NCBI RefSeq assembly: GCF_900109225.1
Contig: NZ_FNZK01000014.1
Location: forward strand, 1 to 64,000
Direction of reading: 5' to 3'
DNA length: 64,000 bases
Source of the DNA: Propionispira arboris
GTDB lineage: Bacteria > Bacillota > Negativicutes > Selenomonadales > Selenomonadaceae
Made by a program: the position numbers and the translations under genes. The first letter of the stretch is position 1. The number at the start of each line of letters is the position of its first letter. The notes below the pieces were generated by a model. That model worked only from the letters and a program-made list of their open reading frames with translations, had not been told where the DNA came from and searched no databases. This document shows, piece after piece, positions 3,359 through 51,087 of the stretch.

Positions 3359-5164
3359 TTGAATAAATTTAAAAATTTGACGAATTGGCTGCATGCTAAG
3401 GTTGCACAGAAAATGTTATATTCGTTGAAATCAACAATTCTGAGTTTTTACATACCGATTATTATTTTATTTATCTTTATGACAGGTACGATTTCATATT
3501 GGCTGGCAGCGCAGCAAATTGAGGACAATGCATATAGTAATGTGCAGACGATTGTTTTTCAAACAGGAAATTATCTGGATAACCGCTTTGCTGATGTCCT
3601 GCAACAGCTGATAGAACTTTCCAATGATCCGGATGTGTTGTCTGTGATCAATAAGGACCCTAAGGATATCAGCCCGGAGGATTACATACGAGTGCAGTCT
3701 CATGTTAATACGATTCGATCACTGAATGGGACGATGATTGATTCGATTTATCTTAACTTTCATAATAATAAGTTTATTTTTTTCCGTGGTGATGATCCAA
3801 ATATTGTAACCCCTTTTAGCTATAAACAATATCGGGATCAATATAAAGACAATCCTTATGATATATATTGGCGCAATTCGAATCCGTCAGATGCAAATCG
3901 AGAAGAAAATGTAAGCCTTTTCAAACTTTTTGGCCGTGGCAATGCAAAGATCAATGGAATTATTTTATTTAGTTTCCGGCATGATTTTTTTGAAAAAGTT
4001 TTTAGTCGCTCCTTACTAAGTAAAAGTGGTTATTTAGTATTAATCAATAAGGAGGGAATCTTGACTTTCAAAAAAACGGACAGTGCTTATCAAATGACGC
4101 CGGATGTAATTCAAAATTTGCAGCAAACGAAAGAAAAATCCGGAAGAATTGAATTTAAAAATACGCAAGGAGAAAATCTGGTAGCTATTTATGAGACGAT
4201 TCCCAGTAATCAGTGGAAATTAGCGGCTGTTTTTACGCAGGCTGAGATACTGGATAATGTGAAATATATCAAATATATTACAGTATTCATTATTATTTTG
4301 TTGATTCTTATTGCGGTGGGGTTGACGAATATACTGGCTGGTTATATTACAAAACCGATTTCTTTATTAGCGGATCATATGAAGAGCATAAAAGGTGATA
4401 ATCTTGAATTTGTTTCGAGTATCCATTCCATTAATGAAATTGGTGTACTGGATCAAGGGGTTCAGGATTTGGTGCAGCGGGTTAAAGTTTTGCTGGAGCA
4501 GATTAAAGCGGAACAGGAAAGTAAACGACAGTTAGAATTTTCGGTGATGCAGACACAGATTCATCCGCATTTTTTATATAATACACTTTATTCGATTCAA
4601 GGATTATGCGATATGGGGTTAACTAAAGATGCAAGTGCTATGGTAACGGCTTTGGCGAATTTCTTTCGCAGTAGTATCAGTTGCGGCAAAGAAATTATTA
4701 CGGTTGAAGAAGAGCTATCGCATATTCGCAATTATTTATTTATTCAAGAGATGCGTTATGGTGATGTTTTTTCTTATGAAATTAATGTAGATTCGAAGCT
4801 TTTTCCTTATAGCATTGTCAAATTAACGTTGCAGCCTTTGGTGGAAAATGCCATTTATCATGGTATTAAACAGAAACGCGGTATTGGCTGGATTAAGGTT
4901 ACTGGGTATACCAAGGATGGCTTCTTGTATTTTGAGGTAGAGGATAATGGCTTGGGTATGACACCAGAACGATTGGCAGAAGTACGGGCCGGGCTGACAG
5001 ATAAAACATTAGGGCGCATTAAAATGGGTTTGGGTGTTCGTAGTGTACATGAAAGAATACAGCTTTATTATGGAACCAATGCTGGTCTTAAAATAGACAG
5101 TGAGTTAAATATAGGGACTGTGATGACGGTTATGATTCCTATGGAAAGATTGGAGGATACGTAA
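3359..5164 (+). CDS. Sensor histidine kinase, YesM/LytS type
   Basis: About 601 residues. Order: membrane segment around residues 25-45, an extracytoplasmic sensor region to about 260 (Cache-like), a second membrane segment around 265-320, HAMP, then a His_kinase domain with QIHPHFLYNTLYSIQG (His near 401) and an HATPase domain with LVENAIYHGI and VEDNGLGM. HPHFLYN is typical of YesM-type kinases, which pair with AraC-type regulators and often sense sugars. I favour TTG 3359 over ATG 3347, because GAGG lies six bases before the TTG whereas the ATG sits directly behind a terminator without a ribosome site. The regulator starts one base after the stop. Its position before the pectin genes suggests it senses pectic oligosaccharides, by analogy with Bacillus YesM. 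Confidence 0.85.
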   Translation: MNKFKNLTNWLHAKVAQKMLYSLKSTILSFYIPIIILFIFMTGTISYWLAAQQIEDNAYSNVQTIVFQTGNYLDNRFADVLQQLIELSNDPDVLSVINKDPKDISPEDYIRVQSHVNTIRSLNGTMIDSIYLNFHNNKFIFFRGDDPNIVTPFSYKQYRDQYKDNPYDIYWRNSNPSDANREENVSLFKLFGRGNAKINGIILFSFRHDFFEKVFSRSLLSKSGYLVLINKEGILTFKKTDSAYQMTPDVIQNLQQTKEKSGRIEFKNTQGENLVAIYETIPSNQWKLAAVFTQAEILDNVKYIKYITVFIIILLILIAVGLTNILAGYITKPISLLADHMKSIKGDNLEFVSSIHSINEIGVLDQGVQDLVQRVKVLLEQIKAEQESKRQLEFSVMQTQIHPHFLYNTLYSIQGLCDMGLTKDASAMVTALANFFRSSISCGKEIITVEEELSHIRNYLFIQEMRYGDVFSYEINVDSKLFPYSIVKLTLQPLVENAIYHGIKQKRGIGWIKVTGYTKDGFLYFEVEDNGLGMTPERLAEVRAGLTDKTLGRIKMGLGVRSVHERIQLYYGTNAGLKIDSELNIGTVMTVMIPMERLEDT

Positions 5165-42030: not shown

Positions 42031-42049
42031 GTAGAAGATATATGACACA

Positions 42050-42325
42050 TACGTTGCAGAGGAATAGTAAAATTCATGGAAAGCTGCAGAGACCTGTTGT
42101 TTGGTGTAAAACAGGGCGGAAATGAATTCGAACTCACCTTGAAGTAGCTCGCTGAAATGAAAAAAGTAAGTTGAGACGGGGCCTGTCCGTTACAATAGGA
42201 GGATATAAGGCTTGTAAGAGTCCGTATCTGTTAGAGTGCATACTTGATTTGAGTATGAATTAGAGTGGTAACACGTAAGCATAGTCTTTCGTCTCTTAAT
42301 AGAGATGAGGGGCTTTTTTGTTGTC
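42050..42325 (+). ncRNA. Leucine-specific T-box leader
   Basis: A T-box riboswitch that measures uncharged tRNA-Leu. Stem I begins near GAGGAATAGTAAA. The specifier context GAA-CTC-ACC-TTGA gives codon CTC (42133-42135), leucine. The T-box AGAGTGGTAACACG (about 42262-42275) carries the TGGT that pairs with the tRNA 3' end. The terminator pairs AGTCTTTCGTCTCT with AGAGATGAGGGGCT and ends in TTTTTT. It sits directly before leuA, so leucine starvation should raise leuA expression. Confidence 0.9.
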
Positions 42326-42353
42326 TAAAACACGATGGGAAGGGAATTTTAAT

Positions 42354-44024
42354 ATGAAAAATTATAGCAAATACCAAAAAGGTTATTTTATGCCACCGAA
42401 GGTAGATATGAGTTGGGCACAAAAAGAGTATGTAGAAAAAGCACCAATTTGGTGCAGTGTTGATTTGCGAGATGGCAATCAGGCGTTAATCATTCCAATG
42501 AGTCTGGATGAAAAAGTTGAATTCTTTAAAATGTTGGTTAAAATCGGTTTTAAAGAAATTGAAGTTGGTTTTCCAGCTGCCTCAGAAACGGAATATGATT
42601 TTTTGCGTAAATTGGTGGAAGAGGATTTGATTCCAGAGGATGTAACGATTCAGGTGTTAACGCAGGCCAGAGAACATATTATCAACAAAACCTTTGAGGC
42701 TTTAGCTGGTGTAAAAAAAGCGATTGTTCATGTTTATAATTCGACATCTGTCGCGCAGCGTGAACAGGTATTTAAAAAATCAAAAACTGAAATCAAACAA
42801 ATTGCTGTGGAAGGTGCTAAACTTTTAAAAACGCTTACTGAAAAAGCAGGGGCTGATTATCAGTTTGAATATTCACCAGAGAGCTTTACGGGAACTGAAA
42901 TTGAATTTGCCTTAGAAGTCTGCAATGCGGTGATTGATGTATGGCAGCCAACACCGGATAAAAAAGTGATTATGAATCTGCCGGTTACTGTTGCAATGTC
43001 GATGCCGCATGTATATGCGGCACAAATCGCGTATATGTCACAGAATATGAAGTGCAGAGACAGCGTGGTGATTTCGCTGCATCCGCATAATGATCGCGGC
43101 TGTGGTGTAGCGGATTCAGAAATGGGATTATTGGCGGGGGCAGATCGGATTGAAGGGACTTTATTTGGCAACGGTGAACGAACCGGCAATGCGGACATCA
43201 TCACCATTGCGATGAATATGTTTGCGCTGGGCGTAGATCCGAAACTTGATTTTTCCAATATGCCAGAGCTGATTGAACTATATGAACGGGTGACTAGAAT
43301 GCAGGTTTATGCCCGCCAGCCTTATTCAGGTGAACTTGTATTTGCTGCGTTTTCGGGATCGCATCAGGATGCGATCGCGAAAGGGATGAATTGGCGTAAA
43401 ACAGAAGATAGCAAGCATTGGACAGTACCTTATCTTTTGATTGATCCCAATGATGTTGGTCGTGAATATGATGGTGATGTGATCCGTATCAACAGCCAAT
43501 CCGGCAAAGGGGGCGTTGGCTATCTGATGGAACAAAAATATGGTCTTGATATGCCAAAGAAAATGCGGGAGAACTTCAGTTATCGTGTGAAAAGTGTATC
43601 GGATCATAAACACCAAGAATTGCTGCCAGATGATTTGTACAGTATTTTCCGTGATGAATATGTAAATGTTGAGACTAAGATAAAACTGATTGACTTTATT
43701 TTAAAAAAAGAACCGGATGGTTCACGAAAAGGAGCCGTTCATCTTGAAGTAGATCGTAAAGAGGTAGTTTGTGAAGCGGTCGGTAATGGACGTCTTGATG
43801 CAGTAAGCAACGCCGTACAGGGCTATCTTGGCATACAATATTCGCATTTGACCTATAGTGAACATGCTCTTGAGATCGGTTCAACATCAAGAGCCATGGC
43901 TTATATCAGCATAACAGGAGACGATGGAAAAGTGATATGGGGTGCTGGTATGGATACCGATATTATTACGGCATCGGTAAAGGCTTTATTTAGTGCAATT
44001 AATCGGATGATTGCCGTTAAGTAA
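42354..44024 (+). CDS. leuA: 2-isopropylmalate synthase
   Basis: About 556 residues from ATG 42354 (GAAGGGAA upstream); a longer TTG frame begins in the T-box terminator. It is the long LeuA form, as in actinobacteria and yeast: KAPIWCSVDLRDGNQALIIP, SLHPHNDRGCGVADSEMGLL, GNGERTGNADIITIAMN, and a C-terminal regulatory LeuA dimer domain (from about 425) for leucine feedback. It condenses 2-oxoisovalerate with acetyl-CoA, the first step of leucine synthesis. The rest of the leucine pathway is not adjacent. Confidence 0.94.
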   Translation: MKNYSKYQKGYFMPPKVDMSWAQKEYVEKAPIWCSVDLRDGNQALIIPMSLDEKVEFFKMLVKIGFKEIEVGFPAASETEYDFLRKLVEEDLIPEDVTIQVLTQAREHIINKTFEALAGVKKAIVHVYNSTSVAQREQVFKKSKTEIKQIAVEGAKLLKTLTEKAGADYQFEYSPESFTGTEIEFALEVCNAVIDVWQPTPDKKVIMNLPVTVAMSMPHVYAAQIAYMSQNMKCRDSVVISLHPHNDRGCGVADSEMGLLAGADRIEGTLFGNGERTGNADIITIAMNMFALGVDPKLDFSNMPELIELYERVTRMQVYARQPYSGELVFAAFSGSHQDAIAKGMNWRKTEDSKHWTVPYLLIDPNDVGREYDGDVIRINSQSGKGGVGYLMEQKYGLDMPKKMRENFSYRVKSVSDHKHQELLPDDLYSIFRDEYVNVETKIKLIDFILKKEPDGSRKGAVHLEVDRKEVVCEAVGNGRLDAVSNAVQGYLGIQYSHLTYSEHALEIGSTSRAMAYISITGDDGKVIWGAGMDTDIITASVKALFSAINRMIAVK

Positions 44025-44072
44025 AAGAAGGCACATGGCTGAATTGAAAAATCAGCCATGTGCCTTCTTTAC
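44024..44072 (+). terminator. leuA terminator
   Basis: AAAGAAGGCACATGGCTGA with TCAGCCATGTGCCTTCTTT around a short loop. Confidence 0.9.
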
Positions 44073-44101: not shown

Positions 44102-44130
44102 TTGACAGATTAGAGAATGTACGTTATTAT
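44102..44130 (+). promoter_or_regulatory. Promoter of the trp operon
   Basis: TTGACA (44102-44107), exact 17-base spacer, TATTAT (44125-44130), just before the T-box leader. Confidence 0.8.
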
Positions 44131-44154
44131 AGTATTAATTTCAAATTGAGTGTA

Positions 44155-44432
44155 AAACATTGAACAGGAAATAGTAAATATACATACTTTTGTCCAGCGA
44201 GTCGGCGGCCGGGAAACCGGAGGTGTAATGGTCGATCTGAAGCGTATATTGAATGGTCCTGTGAGTGTCCACCGAAAACTAGTGGTAGTGAGTAGGCTGG
44301 AACGGTTGCCACCGTTATTGGGCTAGGGTATCGGACTTTTGGTCTCGTACTTGAACAGAGAGAATGCTGTTTTTACGTAGGGTGGCAGACGAAACCATTT
44401 CGTCCCTTAGAGGGGTGGAGTGGATTTTTTTA
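44155..44432 (+). ncRNA. Tryptophan-specific T-box leader, first module
   Basis: Complete T-box. Stem I starts near GAACAGGAAATAGTAAATA and contains GCGAGTCGGCGGCCGGG. The specifier context GAA-TGG-TCC-TGTGAGT gives TGG (44254-44256), tryptophan. The T-box is AGGGTGGCAGACG (44379-44391). The competing terminator pairs CCATTTCGTCCCTT with GGGGTGGAGTGG and ends in a T run at 44425-44431. It senses uncharged tRNA-Trp. Confidence 0.9.
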
Positions 44433-44444
44433 TTTCCTGGCAAT

Positions 44445-44540
44445 AAAACAGTATTTTGAATCAGGGTGGTACAGCGAAAACCATTTCGCCCCTTACATAT
44501 GAATACGTATGTGAGGGTGCGGAATGGTTTATTTTTTTAC
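44445..44540 (+). ncRNA. Second T-box antiterminator/terminator module of the trp leader
   Basis: Immediately after the first terminator comes another T-box, AGGGTGGTACAGCG (44463-44476), with a stronger terminator: AAACCATTTCGCCCC-CTTACATA paired with TATGTGAG-GGTGCGGAATGGTTT, then TTTTTTT (44532-44538). There is no room for a second Stem I (about 30 bases lie between). So it is a duplicated decision module that must be read by the same or a second tRNA without its own specifier. Confidence 0.85.
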
Positions 44541-44583: not shown

Positions 44584-45609
44584 ATGTTGAAACCGTATTT
44601 GAATCAGGTGATTGCGGGGAAAGATTTGTCTAAAGAACAAGCTGCAGCAGCGATGGAAGTTATCATGAGTGGCGAGGCTGGTGATGCGCAGATTGGATCT
44701 TTTTTGACAGCACTAAAGATGAAGGGCGAGGCGATTGATGAGATCGCTGGTTTTGCCAAAACGCTTATTGTACATGCAGATCAAGTGCAGCATACAAAAC
44801 CAGTAATTTGTAATTGCGGGACTGGCGGCGATACAAAAAATACCTTTAATGTATCTACTGCCGTAGCATTTGTTCTTGCCGGGGCAGGTGTTACTGTAGC
44901 CAAACATGGTAATCGAAGTGTATCAAGTTCTTGCGGTAGTGCGGATGTACTTGCAGCTTTGGGGGTAAGCATCGATCAGCCAGCTCAAAAAGTCAGTGAT
45001 GAAATAGAGCAGATCGGCATTGGTTTTTTATTTGCGCCGGCACTGAATAAGGCCATGGCATATGTTGCGAAAGCTCGTAAAGAACTGGGGTTTCGGACTG
45101 TATTTAATTTATTGGGACCTATTATAAATCCGGCTCATTTAGATTATCAGCTTGTGGGTGTTTATGATGCCGCCTTAACTGAAAAGATTGCTGAAGTGTT
45201 AAAGCATGTTGGTGTGAAACAGGCGATGGTAATTCATAGTGGTGAAGGTATGGATGAAATATCGACACACGAAAAAACGAAAGTTAGTGAATTAAAAAAT
45301 GGCAAGGTGACGACGTATTATATCGATCCGCAGGTGTATGGTTTTAGCAGCGGCACGATTTATGAATATCAGGGCGGTTTGCCAAAGGAAAATGCTGCTA
45401 TTTTATTATCTATATTACAAGGCGAGCAGGGAGCAAAACGTGATATCGTTTTAATCAATGCTGCCGCAGGTCTTTATATAGCCAATCAGGCTGTTTCACT
45501 TGCAGCTGGGTTAGAACTGGCAAAAACAACGATTGATTCGGGGGCTGCTTTGGCAAAGCTTACTGAATTGATTGAAATAAGTAATGAAGGAGTTCGTGCA
45601 ATCGGATGA
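44584..45609 (+). CDS. trpD: Anthranilate phosphoribosyltransferase
   Basis: About 341 residues from ATG 44584 (AAGGTGGAG upstream). Motifs: CNCGTGGDTKNTFNVSTAVA (phosphoribosyl pyrophosphate site), KHGNRSVSSSCGSADVLAAL and FNLLGPIINPAHLDYQLVGV. It joins anthranilate and PRPP. First gene of the trp operon, which is unusual since trpE normally leads. Its stop overlaps the trpF start (ATGA). Confidence 0.95.
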   Translation: MLKPYLNQVIAGKDLSKEQAAAAMEVIMSGEAGDAQIGSFLTALKMKGEAIDEIAGFAKTLIVHADQVQHTKPVICNCGTGGDTKNTFNVSTAVAFVLAGAGVTVAKHGNRSVSSSCGSADVLAALGVSIDQPAQKVSDEIEQIGIGFLFAPALNKAMAYVAKARKELGFRTVFNLLGPIINPAHLDYQLVGVYDAALTEKIAEVLKHVGVKQAMVIHSGEGMDEISTHEKTKVSELKNGKVTTYYIDPQVYGFSSGTIYEYQGGLPKENAAILLSILQGEQGAKRDIVLINAAAGLYIANQAVSLAAGLELAKTTIDSGAALAKLTELIEISNEGVRAIG

Positions 45610-46226
45610 TCGTTAAGATATGCGGCATACAGAATTTGGCTATGGCGCTTACTGTAGAGAAATGTGGAGCGGAAATGATGGGGTTCGTTTTTGCCCCCAG
45701 CCGCCGTTCTATTGATCCGGCAGCTGCGGCAAAGATAAGCCAGCGAGTTCAGTCCATAAAGAAAGTTGGTGTATTTGTCAATGAAGAAATTGCAGTGGTC
45801 AATGCAATCGCTGCGCGCTGCGATTTGGACTATGTTCAGCTCCATGGCAGTGAGTCACCGGATTATTGTAGATTTATCAATCGACCAGTCATTAAAGCAT
45901 TTCCATTTTCAGATACATTTTCAGCGGATCTGGTGAATGTCTATCCAGTTGAACTCATTTTAATTGATAGCTGGGAAAAAGGGCTGTCTGGCGGTACTGG
46001 AAAAAAATTTGACTGGGAAAAGGCCAGAAGCTTATTAAATAAAATCGAAAAACCTTTTTTATTAGCGGGTGGACTGACTTGTGAAAATATACAAGAAGCG
46101 GTAGATAAATTAAACCCCTATGGTTTGGATGTATCGGGTGGTGTTGAGGAAAACGGTATAAAATCAATTTTAAAAATTGAAGCCTTTGTGAAAGAGGCAA
46201 AAAAAGTGGAACGGAGGATGGTTTGA
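45606..46226 (+). CDS. trpF: Phosphoribosylanthranilate isomerase
   Basis: 206 residues: VKICGIQNLAMALTVEKCGA with the catalytic Cys, GFVFAPSRRSIDP, LDYVQLHGSESPDYC, and LAGGLTCENIQEAVDKLNPY-GLDVSGGVE. Isomerises PRA to CdRP. It overlaps trpD by four bases and trpC by one (TGATG), so translation is probably coupled. Confidence 0.94.
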   Translation: MIVKICGIQNLAMALTVEKCGAEMMGFVFAPSRRSIDPAAAAKISQRVQSIKKVGVFVNEEIAVVNAIAARCDLDYVQLHGSESPDYCRFINRPVIKAFPFSDTFSADLVNVYPVELILIDSWEKGLSGGTGKKFDWEKARSLLNKIEKPFLLAGGLTCENIQEAVDKLNPYGLDVSGGVEENGIKSILKIEAFVKEAKKVERRMV

Positions 46227-47032
46227 TGGCTGATATATTAGATGAAATTGTTGCCAAGAAAAAAGAAATTGTCGAGGCAGAGAAACAGAATGTATCACTG
46301 CATGAACTGAAACAGCAGATTACACCAGGTCATTTTCTTTTATCACGGGCGATGCGTCAAAAGGACTGGAGCTTAATTGCTGAATGTAAATTGCAATCAC
46401 CGGCAAAAGGCAGGCTGTGCAGCGATTATTCGGTCGTGGATTTGGCTAAAATTTATGCTGAAAATGGTGCGACGGTCCTTTCGGTGCATACAGATCCTCA
46501 TTTTTTAGGAAAGAATGAAGATATTGCCAAAGTAAAAGCAGTCGTTACTCTGCCTGTATTGCGGAAAGACTTCATCATTGATGAGTATCAGATTTATCAG
46601 GCTCGTCAACTTGGTGCGGATGGCGTGTTGCTGATTGCCAGAATTTTGACGCCAGCGCAGCTTAAGGAATATGTTTATACGGCCTGGAGTCTGGGGCTCG
46701 ATGCATTAGTTGAAGTACATGATGAAGCAGATATCAAAGCTGCCCAAGCTACGCCGGCTGAACTTATTGGTATTAATAATCGAAACTTGAAGAATTTTAC
46801 AACGGATATTCAAAATACAATTGATTTAATGCAGTATTGTGATCCAGCAAGGGTTTTAATTAGTGAAAGCGGTATTCATGGAGCAGAGGACATGAATCGG
46901 TTAAAAGCGGTTGGTATAAGAGGCGTTCTCGTTGGCGAGAGCCTGGTTAGAGCGGAAAGTATTGCAGAGAAAACTCAAGAATTAGCTTGCCGAGATGTTT
47001 TGACTTCAAAGGAAAAAAGAGAAACAGCATGA
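46226..47032 (+). CDS. trpC: Indole-3-glycerol phosphate synthase
   Basis: About 268 residues from ATG 46226 (GGAGG upstream). Motifs: SLIAECKLQSPAKGRLCSDY (family consensus ...AEiKk-SPSkG), VLRKDFIIDEYQIYQARQLG, IGINNRNLKNFTTD and LISESGIHGAEDMNRL. Closes CdRP to indole-3-glycerol phosphate. The active-site Lys of the E-x-K-x-x-SPSKG motif is retained as ECKLQSPAKG. Confidence 0.93.
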   Translation: MADILDEIVAKKKEIVEAEKQNVSLHELKQQITPGHFLLSRAMRQKDWSLIAECKLQSPAKGRLCSDYSVVDLAKIYAENGATVLSVHTDPHFLGKNEDIAKVKAVVTLPVLRKDFIIDEYQIYQARQLGADGVLLIARILTPAQLKEYVYTAWSLGLDALVEVHDEADIKAAQATPAELIGINNRNLKNFTTDIQNTIDLMQYCDPARVLISESGIHGAEDMNRLKAVGIRGVLVGESLVRAESIAEKTQELACRDVLTSKEKRETA

Positions 47033-47054
47033 TAAATAATAGGGGGAATATATT

Positions 47055-48242
47055 ATGACAGTAGAAAAAGTTGGCCGTTTTGGCGCTTATGGCGGACAGT
47101 ATGTACCGGAGACCGTGATGCCAGTTCTTATGGAATTGCAGGCAGCCTATGATAAATATAAAACAGATCCCGAGTTTCAAGCCGAGTTTCATCGTTATCT
47201 TAAAGACTATGCCGGTCGTCCAACGATGCTCTATTATGCGGATCGTTTGACAAAACATTATGGTAAGGCAAAAATTTATTTAAAACGGGAGGATTTACTG
47301 CATACAGGGGCTCATAAGATAAACAATGCATTAGGACAGGCTTTACTGGCTATGCGTATGGGGAAAAAACGTATTGTTGCTGAAACAGGAGCTGGGCAGC
47401 ATGGTGTAGCTTGTGCTACGGTAGCTGCTTTGTTTGGACTCGAATGTCATGTATTTATGGGTGAACTGGATATGGAACGGCAAAAGCTTAACGTGTTTCG
47501 GATGCGCCTTTTAGGGAGTAAAGTAATTCCAGTCACAAGCGGAACCGGTACGCTCAAAGATGCAACCAGTGAAGCAATTCGATATTGGGCAGCCAATATT
47601 ACGGATACGCATTACATCATTGGTTCTGTTGTTGGTCCACATCCTTATCCAACGGTGGTACGTGATTTTCAATCCGTGATTGGTAAAGAAATTAAAGAAC
47701 AGATCAAAGAAACGGTTGATGGAAAAGTAGATTATTTGTTGGCTTGTGTTGGCGGCGGCAGCAATGCTATGGGGACTTTTTATGATTTTAAAGATGAAAA
47801 AGCTACTGTAAAAATCGGTGTGGAAGCGGCTGGCCGAAGTGATGTCGATGGTGAGCATGCCAAATCGTTGACGTTGGGACGACCGGGTGTCCTCCATGGG
47901 GCTTACAGTTATTTGCTACAAGATGATGATGGGCAGGTTATTGAAGCATATTCGATTTCAGCGGGTTTGGATTATCCTGGAGTTGGACCGGAACATTCCT
48001 ATTTTAAAGATGCAGGTATCGTTCAATATGTATCGGTAAGTGATGTACAGGCACTGAATGCTTTTAAACTGCTAGCTAAAACAGAAGGTATTATTCCGGC
48101 AATTGAAAGTTCACATGCGTTGGCTTATCTGGAAACTTTGATGCCAATAACGACAGCGGATCAAACGGTAGTTATCTGTTTATCAGGTCGTGGCGATAAA
48201 GATGTTCAGATGGTAGCAAATGTATTAGGGGAGGAAATTTAA
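47055..48242 (+). CDS. trpB: Tryptophan synthase beta chain
   Basis: 395 residues. [23 protein letters not shown] lysine in [40 protein letters not shown], and [15 protein letters not shown] for the phosphate cup. It makes tryptophan from indole and serine. AGGGGG precedes ATG 47055. trpA follows with no gap. Confidence 0.97.
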
Positions 48243-49034
48243 ATGACACGTTTAGATGATACATTACAAACCTTGAAAGCAAAAGGGAAAAAAGGGTTGT
48301 TTATCTATATTACGGCCGGAGCACCTGATTTTGCCACAACGATCGCAGCAGTCAAAGCAGCAGAGCAAGCAGGAGCTGATGTAATTGAACTGGGGATCGC
48401 TTTTTCAGATCCAATCGCAGATGGGCCAGTTATTCAAAAAGCAGCAACAATAGCCATTCAGAATGGTGCAACGACAAAAAAAGTATTGGATATGGTAAAA
48501 ACAATTCGTAGTTTTACGCAGATTCCGTTGATCGGTATGGGCTATATCAATACGATGCTTAATTTTGGTGTTGAAAAATTTATTCAGGAATTTAAAGCTG
48601 CAGGACTCGATGGTATGATCATTCCCGATATGCCACATGAGGAGTCAGCGGATATAGCACAAATCTGTAAAGACAATGCATTTCATTTGATTGAATTTGT
48701 AACACCAAATACAATTCAGACCCGGATTCAAGAGATTTGCACCAGTGCGAATGGATTTATCTATTGCGTCTCCGTTAATGGCGTTACGGGAGTTCGAAAA
48801 ATTGATTATAAGCCAATCAATGATGTCGTGCAGCTAGTAAAGAAGGAAACTATAGTTCCACTTGCAGTTGGCTTTGGTATCGGCACACCAGCCGCAGCTC
48901 TGGAAGCGAGTGAATATGCAGATCATGTTATTGTCGGCAGTGCTGTTGTAAAACTGATTTTAGAGAAAAATGTGGCAGGTGCAGGTGAGCTGATCCAAAG
49001 TATTCGTCAAGCACTTGATAAAGGGGGCGTCTAA
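48243..49034 (+). CDS. trpA: Tryptophan synthase alpha chain
   Basis: 263 residues: FIYITAGAPDFATTIAAVKA, VIELGIAFSDPIADGPVIQK (catalytic Glu and Asp region), GLDGMIIPDMPHEES, FIYCVSVNGVTGVR and VGFGIGTPAAA. Splits indole-3-glycerol phosphate to indole. Its ATG follows the trpB TAA directly. Confidence 0.95.
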   Translation: MTRLDDTLQTLKAKGKKGLFIYITAGAPDFATTIAAVKAAEQAGADVIELGIAFSDPIADGPVIQKAATIAIQNGATTKKVLDMVKTIRSFTQIPLIGMGYINTMLNFGVEKFIQEFKAAGLDGMIIPDMPHEESADIAQICKDNAFHLIEFVTPNTIQTRIQEICTSANGFIYCVSVNGVTGVRKIDYKPINDVVQLVKKETIVPLAVGFGIGTPAAALEASEYADHVIVGSAVVKLILEKNVAGAGELIQSIRQALDKGGV

Positions 49035-50534
49035 ATGCATATATCACCAAGTTTGGAAGAATTTATTGAGTCCACGAAAACTGCAAATGTGATTGCCATC
49101 ACCGCTGAGATATCAACGGATCTTGATACGCCAGTATCAATTTATTATAAGCTTGTTGGAGATGATCAGGGCTTTATTCTTGAGAGTGTAGCCGCGGCAC
49201 AGAAATTTGGTCGATTTTCTTTTATTGGTGCTGAGCCATTTGCGCAGGTGAAGACGTATAAGAATCATACGCGGGTGTTAGAAAATAAAAAAGAAATTAT
49301 TGTGACCGGAAATCCGGTTCAAGCAATGAAGACTTATTTAGAAAAATTTAATACAGCGGCTGATAATATTTTATTGCCGCTTTTAAATGGTGGAGCAATC
49401 GGCTATTTGAATTATGAATCCGTTGGAACGTTTGATCGAGTTCGTGGTCTTAATATTGATGAGGCTAAACTTTTGGGGCAGTTTATGATTTGCCGTGTTC
49501 TGGTTATTATGGATCACCTTAAAAATACAGCTAAACTGGTTTATTTAGCAGAAGTTAATGAAAATGATGATGCGGCATTTATATATAATGAAGGAATTTG
49601 TAAGATGGAATCCGTAAAAAATACATTAAAAGCAGCGGTCAACGATCATTCCGTCAAAAAAAATACTGTAAAAGATCATAAAAAAATTGATTTTTTACAA
49701 GATTTTGGCAAGGTAGATCAAGTGTTTTTAGAGAAGATCCGGATTGCTAAAGAACATATTGCCGCCGGTGATATTTTTCAGATCGTGTTATCGGAACAGT
49801 TTCGTTGTAATATAACAAAACCAGCCTTTCATTTTTATCGTCGGCTTCGTCAGATCAATCCATCCCCTTATATGTTTTATCTGAATTTTGGTGAGATAAA
49901 ACTGGTAGGGTCTTCACCGGAAATGCTGGTAAAAATAAGTGGCGATCAAGTTTTTACGTATCCGATTGCTGGTGCTCGTCCGCGTGGTATCGATGCACAA
50001 ACAGATGCGGCACTGGCTGCAGAACTTCGGTGTGATACCAAAGAGTGTGCCGAACATGCAATGCTGGTGGACTTAGCGCGAAATGATATAGGCAGGATTA
50101 GTAAGCCGGGAACGGTGAAAGTTACAAAACTTATGGAAGTTGAAAAATTTTCCCATGTCATGCATATGGTCTCTGAAGTGTGTGGTCAGGTGAAACAGGG
50201 TAGTCATTCAATGGATGTACTGGGGGCATGTTTCCCGGCGGGGACATTAAGCGGGGCACCAAAAATCAGAGCGATGGAAATTATTAATGAACTTGAAACA
50301 GTCGAAAGAAATGCCTATGGCGGAACTGTCGGCTATATTGATTTTAATGGCAATATGGATATGTGCATTACGATTCGCACCATCCGTATTGAGGGCGATG
50401 AAGCTATTGTTCAGGCCGGGGCTGGTATCGTTGCTGACTCCATTGCCGAAAAAGAATATAAGGAAATTTTGCAAAAGGCCAAGGCTATGTTTCAAACCAT
50501 TGAGGAGGTTGAAGATGATGATTTTATTGATTGA
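49035..50534 (+). CDS. trpE: Anthranilate synthase component I
   Basis: 499 residues. The N-terminal region contains IYYKLVGDDQGFILESVAAA (the LLES-type feedback element for tryptophan). The chorismate-binding domain has AAGDIFQIVLSEQF, NPSPYMFYLNFGEIKLVGSS-PE, PIAGARPRG, VDLARNDIGRISKPGTVKV and FPAGTLSGAPKIRAMEII. With TrpG it makes anthranilate from chorismate and glutamine. Unusually it sits at the operon's end, after trpA. Confidence 0.95.
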   Translation: MHISPSLEEFIESTKTANVIAITAEISTDLDTPVSIYYKLVGDDQGFILESVAAAQKFGRFSFIGAEPFAQVKTYKNHTRVLENKKEIIVTGNPVQAMKTYLEKFNTAADNILLPLLNGGAIGYLNYESVGTFDRVRGLNIDEAKLLGQFMICRVLVIMDHLKNTAKLVYLAEVNENDDAAFIYNEGICKMESVKNTLKAAVNDHSVKKNTVKDHKKIDFLQDFGKVDQVFLEKIRIAKEHIAAGDIFQIVLSEQFRCNITKPAFHFYRRLRQINPSPYMFYLNFGEIKLVGSSPEMLVKISGDQVFTYPIAGARPRGIDAQTDAALAAELRCDTKECAEHAMLVDLARNDIGRISKPGTVKVTKLMEVEKFSHVMHMVSEVCGQVKQGSHSMDVLGACFPAGTLSGAPKIRAMEIINELETVERNAYGGTVGYIDFNGNMDMCITIRTIRIEGDEAIVQAGAGIVADSIAEKEYKEILQKAKAMFQTIEEVEDDDFID

Positions 50535-51087
50535 CAATTATGATTCTTTTACGTATAACGTTTACCAGATGCTCGCCGAGCTCGGCGCGGATGTTGATGT
50601 TGTTCGAAATGATAAAATCAGTATCGCAGAAATCGAGTCAAAGAACTATGAAGCAATTGTTATTTCACCAGGACCGGGGACTCCCGATGAAGCGGGCATT
50701 AGCAAAGCGGCAATTCAGTATTTTGCTGGGAAAAAACCGATTTTTGGTATATGCTTGGGTCATCAAGCAATTGGGGAAGTATTTGGGGCGGCGGTTACGC
50801 GGGCACCACAGCCAATTCATGGCAAGGTCTCAACTTTGATTCATAGCGGTTTTGACATGTATAAAGATTTACCCCAAAATATGCAAATTGGTCGTTATCA
50901 TTCGCTAATTGTTGAGCGGGATACGTTACCGGAATGTCTGGAAATTACGTCGGAACTTGCCGATGGGATGATTATGGGTATAAAACATAAAATGTATCCA
51001 ATTGAAGGAGTGCAATTTCATCCGGAATCCATATTGACACCAGATGGTCGCCAGATACTAAAGAATTTTCTTCAATCGCTTTCATAA
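50515..51087 (+). CDS. trpG: Anthranilate synthase component II (glutamine amidotransferase)
   Basis: 190 residues from ATG 50515, with GAGGAGG six bases upstream, overlapping the trpE end by 20 bases. Motifs: ILLIDNYDSFTYNVYQMLAE, ISPGPGTPDEAG, catalytic Cys in FGICLGHQAIGEVFGA, and QFHPESILTPDG with His and Glu of the triad. The same family supplies para-aminobenzoate synthase, so TrpG may serve both. Confidence 0.94.
   Translation: MMILLIDNYDSFTYNVYQMLAELGADVDVVRNDKISIAEIESKNYEAIVISPGPGTPDEAGISKAAIQYFAGKKPIFGICLGHQAIGEVFGAAVTRAPQPIHGKVSTLIHSGFDMYKDLPQNMQIGRYHSLIVERDTLPECLEITSELADGMIMGIKHKMYPIEGVQFHPESILTPDGRQILKNFLQSLS

Follow-up and report, generated by a model that had tools for sequence, protein, structure and literature searches.

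A tryptophan operon leader of Propionispira arboris with one Stem I, two serial antiterminator/terminator modules and a predicted Stem III split by the first of them

T-box riboswitches comprise a Stem I carrying the specifier, a Stem II, a Stem IIA/B and an antiterminator with a T-box bulge followed by a terminator, all of which are found in the leader described here; it departs from this plan in that its Stem III appears to be split by a complete antiterminator/terminator module, and in that an extra hairpin precedes Stem III. T-boxes with duplicated terminator-antiterminator elements were reportedly described as a structural class by Vitreschak, Mironov, Lyubetsky and Gelfand in 2008 (RNA 14:717), a class that resembles the present leader in having one Stem I and two terminator-antiterminator units. 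An earlier sequence-only reading of this DNA had held that tandem T-boxes usually duplicate Stem I or the whole leader, which was an overstatement, since duplicates confined to the terminator-antiterminator part reportedly belong to this class. Complete tandem T-boxes of trp operons in Bacillota also place serial terminators on a trp operon and are expected to respond more sharply (PMC12452182), but each of their units has a sensor domain, whereas the leader described here repeats neither Stem I nor Stem II. Pseudo-cooperative tandem riboswitches (PMC9481103) likewise set several expression platforms in series for one gene, each with an aptamer of its own, as compared to one sensor for two platforms here. 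Full-text searches returned no description of a shared Stem III within the literature that they covered; this feature therefore appears to be undescribed, whereas the duplication of terminator-antiterminator elements had reportedly been described before.

Leader anatomy and the two modules

The window analysed here is a 64,000-nucleotide stretch of P. arboris DNA, and the leader features and operon described below lie on its + strand. The leader RNA of the trp operon spans 44151-44538 and contains a single Stem I and two antiterminator/terminator modules. A promoter-like site for the operon, TTGACA-17-TATTAT (44102-44130, 11/12 matches), places a predicted transcription start near 44137, both by consensus match only. 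Downstream of the leader are seven genes assigned by Pfam, trpD-trpF-trpC-trpB-trpA-trpE-trpG (44584-51087), of which trpD is the first (44584-45609). The trpE and trpG genes stand at the end of the operon and not at its start, with overlapping reading frames (49035-51087). Upstream of the leader, leuA (42351-44024) is itself preceded by a complete single T-box of 128.5 bits (42045-42299) with CUC (Leu) at the specifier position. Because leuA is followed by a strong terminator-like hairpin (44033-44067, between leuA and the trp leader), the trp operon is apparently transcribed from its own promoter.

Against the Rfam T-box model RF00230 the whole leader scores 91.2 bits (E = 1e-20) over the full model length, the curated cut-off being 93, and the alignment treats the first module as an insertion. 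The same alignment assigns the sole Stem I region to 44151-44266, with approximate limits, and the specifier TGG to 44254-44256; its context in the sequence (GAA-TGG-TCC, GAA-UGG-UCC in the RNA) is canonical in the Rfam alignment, and as a Trp codon it agrees with the tryptophan operon that it would regulate. Stem II and Stem IIA/B follow at 44267-44317 (ACGGTTGCCACCGTTA, Rfam alignment). The extra hairpin, GGGTATCGGA...TCTCGTACTT (44325-44351), lies between Stem IIA/B and Stem III, where the Rfam alignment has an insertion, and shows two-sided changes at 5/9 pairs (RNAalifold, 12 leaders). In relatives it reads GGGUAUCGGA...UCCCGUACC; it is kept across trp leaders of the class, the Negativicutes, and lies outside the Rfam T-box model.

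The first T-box starts at A44379 (GGGTGGCAGACG) and opens antiterminator 1 (44379-44407), which reads AGGG / T-box bulge TGGC(AGA) / CGAAA-CCA-TTTCG / CCCT. Folding places terminator 1 at 44395-44431, where a 13-bp stem (44395-44423) is followed by a T-run to 44431, with an energy of -15.7 kcal/mol. The second T-box starts at A44463 (GGGTGGTACAGCG) and opens antiterminator 2 (44463-44493, from sequence and Rfam), AGGG / T-box bulge TGGT(ACA) / GCGAAA...TTTCGC / CCCT, which overlaps terminator 2 (44478-44538, from folding; stem 44478-44530, then a T-run to 44538), at -35.0 kcal/mol. In both modules the antiterminator and the terminator are mutually exclusive, as judged by sequence and folding, and module 2 folds with z = -5.9 to -6.9 as compared to shuffles. 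MiRNA-like Rfam matches at 44478-44530 were dismissed, as they are the stem of terminator 2. Only 31 nt separate the T-run of terminator 1 from the second T-box, and neither a second Stem I nor a second specifier is found between the modules. The picture drawn by the sequence-only reading, of a complete first T-box with a TGG specifier followed at once by a second T-box with a stronger terminator, some 30 bases apart and so without a second specifier domain, is thus borne out.

As each unit of a complete tandem has its own Stem I, the leader is not one of these; in the window and in 52 further leaders, a single specifier domain is followed by two terminator-antiterminator units. The genome yielded 19 T-boxes, and two intact modules were seen in none of them but the trp leader. 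We consider it probable that only part of the T-box is duplicated in this leader, serial modules following one Stem I/Stem II unit, that module 1 lies inside the Stem III of module 2, and that a single tRNA is checked twice.

The genome has two tRNA-Trp genes, each ending in G-CCA (discriminator G73). The UGGC of module 1 is complementary to the GCCA of tRNA-Trp throughout, and the UGGU of module 2 makes one G.U pair with G73. The idea that UGGU might mark a different tRNA was dropped, many relatives carrying UGGU or UGGC in either module. A second molecule of tRNA could nonetheless be imagined to bind module 2 without a Stem I, given that complete tandem T-boxes reportedly need two tRNAs (PMC12452182); the absence of a second specifier and the description of Stem I as obligate (PMC7583486) make the action of two tRNAs here extremely improbable.

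A predicted Stem III around the first module

Side-by-side reading of the leaders first revealed a complementarity between the stretch running from the purine string to T-box 1 and the stretch just 5' of T-box 2. In the window, the purine-rich string ACAGAG (44355-44360, from sequence) stands immediately 5' of a candidate Stem III arm, AGAATGCTGTTTT (44361-44373), which can form 13 pairs with a 3' arm, AAAACAGTATTTT (44445-44457), itself followed by the linker GAATCA before T-box 2. Paired, AGAAUGCUGUUUU and AAAACAGUAUUUU make a 13 bp helix that encloses module 1. AAUCA is an example of a similar linker found by eye in some single T-boxes of the same genome. The stretch before T-box 2 does lack a Stem I, as had been claimed for it, yet it is not featureless, since it contains the 3' arm of this long-range Stem III. 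A local Stem III hairpin belonging to module 2 was also considered and rejected, the option in the window being weak (-1.3 kcal/mol for the stretch alone); true local copies of Stem III precede module 2 in only a few relatives, most clearly in L028.

Across 35 leaders, the two arms of the same species pair with a mean of -13.8 kcal/mol as compared to -7.6 kcal/mol for permuted partners (z = -11.7; 0/20,000). When each family or genus is represented by a single leader (n = 19), the corresponding values are -13.3 and -6.8 kcal/mol (z = -9.1; 0/20,000). Control pairings reach -6.0 kcal/mol with shuffled arms and -6.4 kcal/mol with the stretch 3' of terminator 2. Pairing is weak in a few leaders (L023, L044, L053 and L128). 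In 76% of own pairs vs 25% of swapped pairs, the helix stops 5-7 nt 5' of the GGG in T-box 2. The minimum-energy structure contains the helix in 21/21 folded leaders, and the best structure lacking it is 7 to 19 kcal/mol less stable. Within one genus, where the alignment is unambiguous, 98.6% of cells are paired and two-sided changes occur at 4/8 pairs; the covariation score is 0.503 vs 0.237 when shuffled (0/500), and every slid register is worse. In a sister species, 98% identical to the window, two changes in the 5' arm convert G.U pairs to A-U pairs.

The RF00230 score is 82.6 bits when module 1 alone is supplied and rises to that of the whole leader when module 2 is used and module 1 becomes an insert in Stem III. 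In the window's family, module 1 is mostly without a local Stem III and without the canonical AA flank, both of which are present in module 2 with the long-range helix; modelled in this way, the split Stem III is predicted to give module 2 a canonical geometry that includes the purine string. In other families, such as the Sporomusa group, a local and a distal 3' arm are both available to a single 5' arm, and an antiterminator follows each. It had been proposed that one Stem I serves two serial decision points, and this is upheld by anatomy and conservation; the accompanying view of module 2 as a bare antiterminator is not, since the covarying long-range helix adds a Stem III and a purine string.

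We also weighed whether module 2 might mainly be a back-up terminator that cuts leak-through in tryptophan excess, where antitermination would take place merely because the tRNA is already present, and where no functional hand-over of Stem III would occur. The far greater strength of terminator 2 as compared to terminator 1 would suit such a role, but a back-up terminator needs neither the full T-box bulge and antiterminator of module 2 nor the compensatory changes that hold the long-range Stem III, and we regard this explanation as unlikely.

A further alternative is that the arm complementarity is a passive relic, the duplicated 3' arm being complementary to the 5' arm by descent and without function. 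The duplicated unit seemingly consists of the 3' arm, antiterminator and terminator, which would give an initial complementarity by itself, and a recent case with near-identical repeats is seen in Paenibacillus alvei. Module 2 is, however, 76% identical across families vs 71% to module 1 of the same genome, and the nearest neighbour is of the same module type in 29/40 cases; because module 2 copies resemble each other more than they resemble module 1 of their own genome, the duplication is for the most part ancient, and from their sequences the arms appear to have diverged together since. Moreover, in 34/35 leaders the best local fold of the upstream stretch is weaker than the distal helix. 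A functionless relic is, on this evidence, very improbable, and we retain the reading of a partially duplicated T-box with a Stem III that closes around module 1.

Conservation in the class and occurrence in other T-boxes

A search at the DNA level through 60 relatives and 300 genomes of the class recovered trp leaders in many of them. Two closely spaced modules are present in 53/94 classified leaders; in 10 of these 53 the first T-box reads GAGUGGC, a type of degenerate first module that simple-motif finding missed and that was then read by eye. The remainder carry a single module (30/94, including some relatives from the same family as the window), a partial duplication of larger size, 145-231 nt (4/94) or complete tandem T-boxes (7/94, spaced 302-321 nt in some relatives). 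Since some relatives of the same family have one module only, two modules are not essential; with close modules in 53/94 leaders, the two-module layout is nevertheless a common state of the class. Such conservation, and the E-value of the Rfam match, put the leader well outside what chance would give. By this comparison the layout is no remnant, and the refuting outcome named in the sequence-only reading, an unfolded remnant not kept in relatives, fails. Within the class is found the range of states expected of duplication followed by reduction, with complete tandems at one end, the compact form at the other, and between them a duplicate that has a Stem III of its own (L028).

Several leaders bear on the state of module 1. 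In one genus (L041, L083, L110, L119, L129, L134 and L107) the first-module UGGC is kept, with UGGU in one leader, and helix A1 reads CGAG/CUCG, or a variant, in place of AGGG/CCCU, the antiterminator still being possible. The genome also holds a second Trp T-box (L019; G000:C36:82462-82763), which is weak at 55.7 bits and has a variant second T-box, AGGCUGG. Its minimum-energy fold lacks the split Stem III, and a short ORF downstream of it matches chorismate mutase type II.

Alternatively, the true switch could be module 2 together with the split Stem III, module 1 being an inserted, degenerating attenuator with poor tRNA sensing. Local Stem III is often missing at module 1 in the window's family, its bulge can deviate (UGGCAGA, UGGCUG, GAGUGGC), two leaders have lost module 1 while Stem III still closes around the gap (L040 and L127), and L019 apparently carries a decayed first module. 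Against this, UGG and the terminator are kept wherever module 1 persists, including 10/10 of the GAGUGGC-type leaders, and module 1 has a good local Stem III in other families. We judge a degenerating first module to be improbable, and continue to favour two modules that both take part in sensing; it is uncertain how well module 1 of the window, with no proper Stem III formed locally, can turn away charged tRNA.

One genome per species was scanned for the pattern. The scan gave many chance matches in GC-rich genomes and repeats, and was filtered by the presence of two terminators, which left at least 37 two-terminator cases among the matches listed. The genes below these cases, named by eye from protein starts, include serC, sodium symporters, ilvD, trpE, an amino acid ABC transporter and others. 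For the 16 tandem modules among the matches listed, with trp leaders of the class and serC left out, own arms pair at -10.9 vs -6.6 kcal/mol (z = -6.2; 0/20,000). For serC leaders, 756/20,000 permutations were as good, their sequences being alike, so that permutation has little power. Judged from these sequences, T-boxes upstream of transporter genes, ilvD, trpE and other genes appear to follow the rule of a shared 5' arm as well, in bacteria ranging from Clostridia to Chloroflexi.

Two close T-box modules were seen in serC leaders of Phascolarctobacterium, Dialister, Megasphaera and relatives (L144, L147, L148, L158, L164, L179, L182, L205 and L213). In Paenibacillus alvei (L154, around 4429-4700), three near-identical antiterminator/terminator modules stand behind one Stem III 5' arm, and the next long ORF after this leader resembles a transporter of the sodium:neurotransmitter symporter family.

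A possible double check of one tRNA

We propose that polymerase would first make Stem I, which would capture tRNA-Trp. At module 1, the GCCA end of an uncharged tRNA would pair with UGGC and so block terminator 1. Once polymerase had passed module 1, the newly made arm at 44445-44457 would pair with 44361-44373, and closure of this long Stem III would loop out module 1 and bring the purine string beside antiterminator 2; the role of this string in T-boxes is taken from PMC7583486. The 3' end of the tRNA, still held on the same Stem I, would then meet a second check, at UGGU, ahead of terminator 2. Elsewhere in the class, in families where the same 5' arm has two possible 3' arms, a strand exchange may transfer Stem III from the first module to the second. 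We propose serial checking of a single tRNA together with such a hand-over because antiterminator 2 would be incomplete without a Stem III and a purine string, and the long-range helix would supply both. The expected outcome is an AND gate, in which leak-through would be the product of the two terminators, and a tRNA found charged at either check would shut the operon; the response may thereby be sharpened.

More tentatively, and with somewhat less than even confidence, we suggest that the interrogation of one Stem I-bound tRNA twice, as the Stem III 5' arm and purine string pass from one 3' arm to the next, may be a strand-exchange switch and a serial proofreading of charging that recurs in bacteria, on trp, transporter, ilvD and other leaders.

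Taken together, this analysis turns a second T-box without a sensor into a testable structural rule, by which the duplicated unit would consist of the Stem III 3' arm, antiterminator and terminator, with the 5' arm shared. The leader illustrates how several terminators in series may be governed by a single sensor RNA; the arrangement suggests a form of proofreading of tRNA charging. The split layout also suggests why such leaders can drop under the Rfam cut-off, and be missed or taken as single T-boxes. As a layout, it would offer a compact design for steeper tRNA-responsive switches.
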